38,001 nucleotides of DNA from the NCBI GenBank assembly GCA_035308905.1, contig DATGFS010000061.1:1-38001 (forward strand). The letters are read 5' to 3'. Each line of letters begins with the position of its first letter. Within the stretch, counting starts at the first letter, position 1. This document shows positions 924 to 3,371 of this stretch, in pieces. Position numbers and translations under genes: made by a program. The notes below the pieces were generated by a model. It did no database searches. It worked only from the letters and a program-made list of their open reading frames with translations, and was not told the origin of the DNA. The DNA is from a bacterium. Lineage in GTDB: Bacteria; Sysuimicrobiota; Sysuimicrobiia; Sysuimicrobiales; Segetimicrobiaceae.

Positions 924-1793
924 TTAGACCGAGGCGTGAGCGATGAACTGAAGCCAGTAGCGCGGGACGGTGCCGTCCGTCAAACGGGCGTCCTGGATCG
1001 CGGCGCGGACGGTGCGCTTGAGGGCGTCGGCACCGGCCTCGAGCGGCACGCCGGGAAGCGCGCCTTCGATGAACATCGAGAACTGGCCGATGTCCTCAAG
1101 GCTTTCGGGAGACATCTCGACCTTGTGGAGCTCCCAGGACGGCTCGACGAAACCGGCCCCGGACAGCAGCTGCGCGTATTCTTCGGGTGTGCGCCACCGC
1201 ATCGCGGCCGCGCGGTCGGCGTGCGTATGCGTCACGCTGATGCCGGAATCTTGCAACAGGCGCGCCGCCCGGACCACCCACGACCGCCAGAACCGCTCGG
1301 TCCCCGGCACGTAGCATCCTTTGAAATAGGTCGTGTTGAACGCGAGCACGCCGCCCGGCCCAAGCACGGTCCGGATTTCCTGCAGCACCCGCTCCTTGTC
1401 GCCGATCAGGTGAATGGCGTTGCAGAACACCACGACGTCCACCTGCGGAACGAGCCGGCTGAGGTTCTCGGCGCTGCCGTGGACGAACCGGACGATGCTC
1501 GACGCGATCCGCCGCCGGGCGCGGTGCAGCTCGACGAGCGACGGATCCACGGCGTAGATAATCCCGCGGGTGTGCTCGCGCATGCGGGCCAGCAGCAGCT
1601 CGGTGATCGCGCCGGGACCGCAGGCGAGGTCCACGATGCGCGGGCCGAGCGCCGCGACGCGATCGACGAGCCAGCGGTTGACGTCGGTGAAGAACGGATG
1701 GCGGGCAAAGCGCCAGAAACCGAAACGGTCTTCCTCTGTTGAGAGGACGTCGGACGCAAACTCGGACGTTACGTGGTGCTCGTCCACAGCCAT
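924..1793 (-). CDS. class I SAM-dependent methyltransferase
   Basis: 289 residues. Motif I is IVDLACGPG (about 53-61), followed by an acidic residue ending strand 2 (YAVDPS), then VVFCNAIHLIGDKERVL (motif IV region) and LGPGGVLAFNTTYF (motif V region). This is the usual Rossmann methyltransferase order. The substrate cannot be inferred: the family includes small-molecule, quinone and lipid methyltransferases. No membrane segment or extra domain is visible. A TATAAT hexamer directly abuts the ATG at 1793, so the functional start may be the GTG at 1787 of a leaderless transcript (see the site at 1795-1800). It stands alone between thrC and the helicase-like gene. Confidence 0.85.
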   Translation of the reverse strand: MAVDEHHVTSEFASDVLSTEEDRFGFWRFARHPFFTDVNRWLVDRVAALGPRIVDLACGPGAITELLLARMREHTRGIIYAVDPSLVELHRARRRIASSIVRFVHGSAENLSRLVPQVDVVVFCNAIHLIGDKERVLQEIRTVLGPGGVLAFNTTYFKGCYVPGTERFWRSWVVRAARLLQDSGISVTHTHADRAAAMRWRTPEEYAQLLSGAGFVEPSWELHKVEMSPESLEDIGQFSMFIEGALPGVPLEAGADALKRTVRAAIQDARLTDGTVPRYWLQFIAHASV

Positions 1794-1976: not shown

Positions 1977-2645
1977 TCAGGCCCGGTGCCCCGGACTGAG
2001 CGACTGCACGGGCGCGTTCGTCACCCAAATGGGGTTCCGGAGGTACCGGCTCACCATCGCCCGGATCGGCTCCGGCAGCGTCGACGAGAACAGCACCGTC
2101 TGCCGCGTCGACGGCGTGCGCACGAGGATCTGCTCGACGTCCGTCCGCAGACCCATCTTGAGCATCCGGTCCGCGTCGTCCAAGACCAGCATGTGCACGC
2201 TGCGCAGGGTCAGCGTCGCCTTGCCGAGGTGTTCGAGCACACGGCTCGGCGTCCCGACGACGATGTGCGGCTTCTCCCGCAGCCGTGTGATCTGCCGCGC
2301 GAGCGGCTCGCCCGTCGAGATCGCGACGATGCGCAGCCGCGTGTGCGCCCCAAGCCGGCCGAGGTCGCCCGTGATCTGCCGCACCGCGTCGCGATTGGGC
2401 GCCAGGACGAGGCCCTGCACGGCCTTGCTGCGCGGATCGAGCCGCTGCAGCATCGGGATGCCGAACGCCGCCGTCGTGCGCGGCGCGGGATCGGCCTGCG
2501 CGACGAGATCCCGTCCGATCGCAAGCGACGGGATCACGCGCGACTGGATCGGCGTGGGGGTCGCCCACCCGAGTTCCTGCAGCGCGCGCTGGATGCGGGG
2601 ATCCGCCAGCCCGCCGAAACCGTTGGTATGTGTTTCGATGGCCAT
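1977..2645 (-). CDS. degenerate stand-alone DEAD-box RecA1 domain protein
   Basis: 222 residues from ATG 2645, chosen because GAGGGG lies 7 nt upstream. The whole protein aligns by eye to the first RecA-like domain of DEAD-box RNA helicases: Q-motif region GWATPTPIQ (26-34), motif Ia-like LAPNRD, GTPSRV (131-136), motif II-like VLDDAD (154-159) and motif III-like SST (187-189). The key ATPase positions are altered. The Walker A stretch reads AQADPAPRTTAAF (49-61), where the family has AQxxTGxGKTxAF, so the lysine and both glycines are lost. DEAD is DDAD and SAT is SST. No RecA2 domain follows before the stop. ATP-driven unwinding is therefore unlikely; an RNA-binding or partner-binding role is inference. 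It has no obvious operon partner. Confidence 0.75.
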   Translation of the reverse strand: MAIETHTNGFGGLADPRIQRALQELGWATPTPIQSRVIPSLAIGRDLVAQADPAPRTTAAFGIPMLQRLDPRSKAVQGLVLAPNRDAVRQITGDLGRLGAHTRLRIVAISTGEPLARQITRLREKPHIVVGTPSRVLEHLGKATLTLRSVHMLVLDDADRMLKMGLRTDVEQILVRTPSTRQTVLFSSTLPEPIRAMVSRYLRNPIWVTNAPVQSLSPGHRA

Positions 2646-2794
2646 TCGCACGCCCCTCGAATCAGGTTCTGCGCCGTGCACCCGCAAGCACCTGAACGGG
2701 AGATGCCGGGTACACAGGGCACGACCGGAGACAGTCACTCACTCCCGTCGGCCGTTGGAAGATGCGTCGTTGCGTCGCTGGAAGACGCCGGGGT

Positions 2795-2824
2795 TTGAGT
2801 TTGGCTGCGAGGCTATTGTATCAT
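2795..2824 (+). promoter_or_regulatory. candidate promoter of queF-queT
   Basis: TTGAGT (2795-2800), 18-bp spacer, TATCAT (2819-2824): four and five matches to the sigma-70 hexamers. It predicts a start near 2831 and a leader of about 37 nt carrying the queF ribosome binding site. The leader is too short for a preQ1 riboswitch with an expression platform, and I see none. Confidence 0.5.
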
Positions 2825-2867
2825 AGCACCGGCCTGACGTTCAACCGAGGCGAGGTGGCGAACACAC

Positions 2868-3371
2868 GTGCGGCCCAAGCCGGGCGAAGCGCCCAGGGAC
2901 ACCACCGCTCGCGATACCGCGGGGGTCGACGCCGACCGCGTGCCGGCGGACCCGCCGGCGGCCGGCATGATATCGAGGCCGCTGCCCGTCTCGCTCGATG
3001 TCCGGTCTCCGGCCACGGTCAGGGCCGAGGTACTGGAGACGTTCCCGTACGAATACGCCGGCTCGCCGGCGGTCGTGGATATCGAGACCGACGAGTTCAC
3101 CGCCGTCTGCCCGTGGTCGGGGCTGCCCGATTTCGGCCGCCTGGTCATCCGCTATCTGCCGAAAGAGCGGGTGCTGGAGCTGCGCTCGCTCAAGTACTAT
3201 CTGCTCTCGTACCGCAGCGTCGGCATCTTCCAGGAGCACGCCGCCAACCGCATCCTCGACGACCTCGTCCGCGCCTGCGCGCCCGCCTGGATGGAGCTCG
3301 AGCTCGATTACCGAATCCGCGGAGGCGTCCACACCGTCGTCCGCACGCGCTGGCCGGCGTCCCCCTCGTGA
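2868..3371 (+). CDS. queF: NADPH-dependent 7-cyano-7-deazaguanine reductase QueF
   Basis: Reduces preQ0 to preQ1 in queuosine biosynthesis or salvage. 167 residues in the short unimodular form of the family. Catalytic cysteine C81 and aspartate D88 are in AVCPWSGLPDFG. The QueF signature region is ELRSLKYYLLSYR (104-116), followed by the substrate-contact stretch GIFQEHAANRI. The first 45 residues are a Pro/Ala-rich extension not expected in the core family, so the in-frame ATG at codon 34 is a conceivable alternative start. The GTG at 2868 is preferred because GAGGTGG lies 9 nt upstream. Its stop overlaps the queT start by 4 bp (GTGA). Confidence 0.92.
   Translation: MRPKPGEAPRDTTARDTAGVDADRVPADPPAAGMISRPLPVSLDVRSPATVRAEVLETFPYEYAGSPAVVDIETDEFTAVCPWSGLPDFGRLVIRYLPKERVLELRSLKYYLLSYRSVGIFQEHAANRILDDLVRACAPAWMELELDYRIRGGVHTVVRTRWPASPS

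Follow-up and report, generated by a model that had tools for sequence, protein, structure and literature searches.

The window analysed here is the whole 38,001-nucleotide stretch of DNA from a Segetimicrobiaceae genome (4.0 Mb, 97.3% complete; G000 in our set). From an ATG at 2645 to a stop codon ending at 1977, its minus strand encodes a protein of 222 residues (MAIETHTNGF...SPGHRA). The first-pass annotation had described a product of this length without naming the strand; the length is correct, the strand is minus, and nothing similar is encoded on the plus strand of 1977-2645. The gene and its immediate surroundings comprise the following features.

924-1793, minus strand: class I methyltransferase, the downstream neighbour, whose adjacency to the gene is conserved
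1977-2645, minus strand: coding sequence of the RecA1-only DEAD-box pseudohelicase, 222 amino acids (open reading frame, Pfam, AlphaFold model)
2653-2658, minus strand: Shine-Dalgarno-like GAGGGG, 7 bases upstream of the ATG and conserved in the upstream alignment of relatives
2646-2813, minus strand: conserved structured 5' leader of the pseudohelicase gene (model R2), 106.3 bits in the window
2815-2820, minus strand: -10-like box TACAAT, assigned by sequence match
2839-2844, minus strand: -35-like box TTGAAC, 18 bases from the -10-like box, likewise a sequence match
2868-3371, plus strand: QueF-like divergent neighbour, found beside the gene across the family

Both the intact frame and the good ribosome-binding site claimed for this gene stand up to scrutiny: the frame is unbroken in the window and runs to its natural end in 10 of 11 orthologues, and GAGGGG lies 7 bases before the ATG. 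An alternative frame from 2738 is longer (253 amino acids); since the relatives have the ATG at 2645 in common, together with its ribosome-binding site, 2738 is probably not the natural start. Pfam reports DEAD (PF00270, 2e-33) at residues 31-194 as the sole domain match in the protein, in agreement with the earlier statement that it has no RecA2 domain. The AlphaFold model (mean pLDDT 89.1, pTM 0.86) superimposes on the RecA1 domains of CshA/DeaD helicases with Z of about 33 and rmsd of 1.0-1.2, with which Foldseek agrees. The fold is shared with these structures (PDB 5ivl, 6aib, 5gju) over about 197-200 residues at 37-44% identity. CshA is also the best NCBIfam match, at 199.9 bits, far under its cut-off of 646.

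A half-size helicase could be one part of a split enzyme, with RecA2 supplied in trans. A Helicase_C search of four genomes (G000, G001, G006 and G010) found no separate RecA2-only gene, and all matches listed sit in open frames of at least 434 amino acids; with no short Helicase_C frame in these four genomes, the split enzyme was rejected. Orthologues of the window gene are present in 11 of the 12 Segetimicrobiaceae genomes, the window's included, and the others are 69-98% identical to it. In the twelfth (G008, 64% complete) the contig carrying QueF runs on for only 55 bases after the QueF match and ends just where the gene would be expected. Because 11 of 12 family genomes carry the same single-domain, lysine-less protein, chance and an assembly frameshift are excluded, and the orthologues together with the Helicase_C search in the four genomes also rule out a RecA2 domain lost in assembly. 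The only broken frame among the 11 orthologues is that of G009 (68% complete), which breaks at about residue 186.

Beyond the family, the gene is absent from all 31 other Sysuimicrobiota genomes (43 were searched in the phylum), where the matches are full-length helicases; a short frame in G017 proved to be what remains of a broken helicase gene, its end with RecA2. We extended the search to a collection of 84,980 species and examined the best 80 of 192 related stretches. Five of these 80 are members of the group (L025-L029). Among the other 75, the motif pattern flagged three: L093, truncated at a contig end, shows a normal Walker A; in L081 and L083 the frames are long and DEAD is present, with a Walker A unmatched by the search pattern used.

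The helicase motifs of the window protein, together with its longest conserved segment, map as follows.

2544-2570, minus strand: Q motif GWATPTPIQ, residues 26-34, intact in the window protein
2472-2495, minus strand: ADPAPRTT in place of motif I (Walker A), which is lost; residues 51-58, from the alignment of orthologues
2403-2474, minus strand: TAAFGIPMLQRLDPRSKAVQGLVL, residues 58-81, the longest block without variation across all 10 intact orthologues
2241-2255, minus strand: motif Ib region GTPSR, residues 131-135, with T, P and R unchanged across the 10 intact orthologues
2169-2180, minus strand: motif II DDAD, residues 156-159, from the alignment of orthologues
2079-2087, minus strand: motif III SST, residues 187-189, which is SAT, SAA, AST or ASA in relatives

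All motif assignments of the first-pass annotation are found in the protein: PTPIQ and GTPSRV are kept, Walker A has changed from AQTGSGKT to ADPAPRTT, DEAD reads DDAD, and SAT reads SST. Two further changes had escaped it, namely motif Ia (PTREL to PNRDA) and the GG motif (now TG). Across the orthologues, motif Ia is PNRDA or PSKDL, GG is TG or EG in genera g1 and g4, and the end of the Q motif varies to PTPIE in genus g2 (three genomes) and to PTTIQ in one g4 genome. A lysine at the Walker position occurs in none of the 10 intact orthologues and is absent in G009 too. Motif I takes a form typical of each genus: ADPAPRTT in g1, ADPGSRTT in g2, AEAGDRTT in g3, and AEAGSART or AETGSART in g4. 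Motif II appears as DDAD, DDTD or DAAD; its first and fourth aspartates are kept and its glutamate is lost in all 10 intact orthologues. The proposed check on shared substitutions thus came out positive, with the Walker lysine and the DEAD glutamate gone in every orthologue. Neither restored motifs with a RecA2 domain nor an assembly frameshift was found among the orthologues, and the only intact homologue is the paralogue at another locus. Of the hallmarks of an active DEAD-box helicase, the window protein retains the RecA1 fold and the Q motif (PTPIQ) and lacks the P-loop lysine, the DEAD glutamate and the second RecA domain with motifs IV-VI.

From its sequence, the window protein is predicted not to bind ATP. 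Loss of the ATP-site residues is universal and the replacing residues are genus-specific, a pattern that points to loss of the site before the Segetimicrobiaceae diversified, with no selection on it as a site since. Replacement residues, for example the arginine in APRTT or SART, might instead preserve a dependence on ATP or another nucleotide: every one of the 10 intact orthologues has an arginine at the lysine position or next to it, and both outer aspartates of motif II persist. We consider this very improbable, given that the P-loop glycines and the catalytic glutamate are gone, that the glutamine of the Q motif has become glutamate in genus g2, that motif I differs between genera, unlike a functional site, and that there is no RecA2, the domain that supplies the arginine fingers in DEAD-box helicases.

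The gene might also be a decaying pseudogene or a truncated assembly product, and the frame break in G009, one of 11 orthologues, could be read in this way. The check for a low dN/dS, called for by the first-pass annotation, bears on this directly. In nine within-genus pairs, drawn from three genera and not independent of one another, dN/dS of the pseudohelicase gene is 0.017-0.070 versus 0.099-0.211 for the RecA1 part of the intact paralogue in the same genomes (NG86 only, 199 aligned RecA1 codons; whole-gene values agree; dS is near or above 1 in the g4 pairs). The pseudohelicase value is the lower one in nine of nine pairs, with bootstrap intervals clearly apart in six. Furthermore, 121 of 204 positions are invariant among the 10 intact orthologues, in which frame, start, leader and synteny are all preserved. 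Decay is thus refuted at the sequence level by intact orthologues, synteny and dN/dS, and we regard it as extremely unlikely.

Not only the strength of constraint distinguishes the two genes. We compared, in nine genomes, the 27 positions that we assigned to the motifs with the remaining 172, by a Fisher test that treats sites as independent. In the pseudohelicase gene 10 of 27 motif positions are invariant versus 114 of 172 others (odds ratio 0.30, p 0.005), whereas in the active paralogue of the same nine genomes the counts are 26 of 27 and 72 of 172 (odds ratio 36). Constraint in the pseudohelicase gene is inverted relative to the active paralogue. Within the block TAAFGIPMLQRLDPRSKAVQGLVL, the active paralogues are invariant at only 9 of the 24 sites. 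The protein thus combines a helicase-homologous fold, a group-wide loss of catalytic residues and maintenance by selection, the properties by which a pseudohelicase is recognized at the sequence level. The earlier reading of a maintained pseudo-enzyme rather than a decaying gene agrees with the shared motif loss, the very low dN/dS and the intact paralogue, and we hold with high confidence that the window protein is a maintained pseudoenzyme.

Wherever the flanks are assembled, the locus is constant: QueF lies divergently upstream, and the methyltransferase follows downstream together with a gene that we take to be threonine synthase, a name given from reading its sequence rather than from a family search. 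In G010 the QueF frame (L129, G010:C5:117855-118259) has one TGA stop inside the match. Such a conserved adjacency, and the presence of both QueF and QueT as divergent neighbours in the window, would fit a protein that partners the methyltransferase (or the queuosine genes) and lends RNA specificity to an RNA-modifying enzyme. On the other hand, 24 of the 31 phylum genomes outside the family have the methyltransferase, all without the pseudohelicase gene; the spacing of the two genes is not constant, and several methyltransferase starts have TATAAT-like boxes ahead of them. We find a partnership of this kind hardly likely. The methyltransferase perhaps has its own promoter, and with its transcription apparently separate, the neighbourhood offers little hint to the function of the pseudohelicase. 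In the window, a strong inverted repeat (1800-1845) stands directly before the methyltransferase start and is followed within a few bases by TATAAT and the ATG, an arrangement that suggests a leaderless methyltransferase mRNA.

An intact helicase elsewhere in the genome, which the first-pass annotation had proposed to look for, does exist: the window genome contains two matches to the query, namely the pseudohelicase gene and a full-length DEAD-box helicase on contig 28 (G000:C28). Of the 11 family genomes with the pseudohelicase gene, 10 also carry the full-length helicase. In the remaining one, G006 (96% complete, 130-contig assembly), we found neither a full-length DEAD-box match nor the helicase leader described below, although the pseudohelicase gene is present; G006 may lack the helicase only through an assembly gap. 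Across the phylum, six genomes (G006, G020, G035, G036, G037 and G041) yielded no full-length DEAD-box helicase, four of them being 94-99% complete; the only helicase of this kind in the phylum has apparently been lost there.

In a tree of 48 RecA1 domains (G009 left out), the pseudohelicases form a clade with 100/100 support, whose stem is long (0.71) and whose inner branches are short, placed beside the full-length helicases of the phylum. An AU test rejected a single clade of pseudohelicases and family helicases (p 0.011), while the family helicases alone as one clade were not rejected (p 0.104). The former result argues against a duplication inside the family, with room for a long-branch effect left by the long stem; an older duplication followed by losses may have taken place.

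Both genes have conserved structured leaders. Model R2, built from 11 sequences including the window's, was detected upstream of the pseudohelicase gene in 10 of 11 family genomes searched (all but G009; none in G008). Covariation in R2 exceeds the shuffled mean on all five measures, with 0 to 12 of 500 shuffles reaching the observed values, and outside the family R2 gave three weak matches (E 0.0023, 0.06 and 0.09), all at other places. The region upstream of the full-length helicase gene contains a leader of about 110 bases, captured by model R1 (26 sequences; L133:967-1076, that is G000:C28:967-1076, in the window genome). R1 is present in 35 of 43 phylum genomes, that is in 35 of the 37 with a full-length helicase match and in none of the six without, and each of these genomes has one copy, apart from G007, where an additional one is a contig-end fragment. 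In the R1 alignment, 96.2% of cells are paired, and there are 12 double-change cells versus 3.2 in shuffles; two of the five covariation measures are not above shuffles. R1 was not found in the 62 helicase loci of other phyla searched (of 75). Rfam gave no match in the window and only tRNAs in four helicase loci. The R1 leader resembles an autoregulatory or cold-sensing element. Its core is followed, directly before the helicase ribosome-binding site, by two more small hairpins (L133:960-1160, aligned leaders), and a possible pseudoknot pairs GAGTTGGTCCGGC with GCCGGCACCAACTC, competing with the GTGTGTCGC/GCGAGACAC helix.

Comparison of the two leaders gives weak signs that they are akin. R1 matches the pseudohelicase leader of G005 with E 0.0016 (39 kb, without filters) and 0.0084 in another search. 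When the 11 pseudohelicase leaders were compared by a sequence-only shuffle test, five beat all 100 shuffles, two were beaten by 6 and 12 shuffles, and four, the window's among them, gave no match. In the reverse search of helicase loci, R2 reached E 0.5-0.7 at the helicase leaders, and unrelated places scored equally well or better.

Such a relationship, however weak, would fit a pseudohelicase that is a dedicated regulator of the full-length helicase, an antagonist or buffer whose lone RecA1 domain competes for the RNA, the leader RNA or the RecA2 of that helicase. Both proteins are CshA-like, and their genes occur together in nearly every family genome. Against this stand G006, with a pseudohelicase gene and no detectable full-length helicase, and the four leaders that match nothing; moreover, a pure RNA competitor should keep motifs Ia and GG intact, and both vary. 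We regard a dedicated regulator as rather unlikely. Because G006 keeps the gene without a detectable full-length helicase, inhibiting that helicase is probably not the only role of the pseudohelicase.

Rather, within the reading as a maintained pseudoenzyme, a half-size helicase copy has very probably acquired a new, ATP-free job. A copy of a CshA/DeaD-like helicase would have been cut down to RecA1 and would have lost its ATP site before the Segetimicrobiaceae diversified; strong purifying selection would then have fixed it for a job that needs the RecA1 scaffold and neither ATP binding nor hydrolysis. Over the aligned RecA1 region, the 10 pseudohelicases have a net charge of +8 to +12 versus +3 to +6 in 11 active RecA1 domains; this charge and the kept TPxR of motif Ib point to a protein that may bind RNA or an RNP without an ATP cycle, while the invariant non-motif surfaces (residues 58-81, 170-183 and 200-206) might dock a partner. 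The resulting role would be that of an adaptor or an RNA chaperone-like factor. The RNA-contact motifs Ia and GG are partly eroded, so RNA binding may be weakened too. On balance, we lean slightly towards an ATP-independent RNA- or RNP-binding adaptor.

That a single domain predicted to be ATP-dead evolves more slowly than its active paralogue shows that selection can act on the RecA1 scaffold alone as a function, and the shift of constraint from motifs to surfaces singles out specific, testable residues. Searches of open-access papers showed no bacterial DEAD-box pseudohelicase, and none that is RecA1-only and derived from an RNA helicase. We tentatively raise a broader scenario, which we consider unlikely as a whole: the first bacterial and first RecA1-only DEAD-box pseudohelicase would be an ATP-independent RNP factor copied together with the helicase leader, and related 5' RNA sensors would read out both genes as one regulatory pair. 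According to one study (PMC11604079), Segetimicrobiaceae are the most abundant family of the phylum in soils, and most Sysuimicrobiota genomes used there derive from hot springs. If true, this helicase-pseudohelicase pair would thus belong to a soil lineage of a largely hot-spring phylum.

Compared with the CshA/DeaD enzymes whose fold it shares, the window protein has no RecA2, no P-loop lysine and no DEAD glutamate, its SAT motif is altered, and its constraint lies off the motifs. Pseudohelicases appear to be scarce; the searches turned up two published cases, and a 2022 paper terms its own only the second proposed (PMC9539457). The case of that paper, Utp25/Def of the SSU-processome, is described there as a DEAD-box-derived, maintained non-catalytic protein with vestigial, dispensable motifs, which is the likeness to ours. 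Utp25 keeps both RecA-like domains and is a eukaryotic factor of ribosome assembly, whereas the window protein is bacterial and consists of RecA1 alone. A bacterial parallel is PriA of Deinococcus radiodurans, which is reported to be a helicase that has lost its ATPase and kept its nucleic-acid binding and a helicase partner. PriA is a DNA helicase, apparently without an active form of its own alongside (PMC4504706), whereas the window protein is a single domain derived from an RNA helicase, and most genomes that have it also encode an active paralogue.
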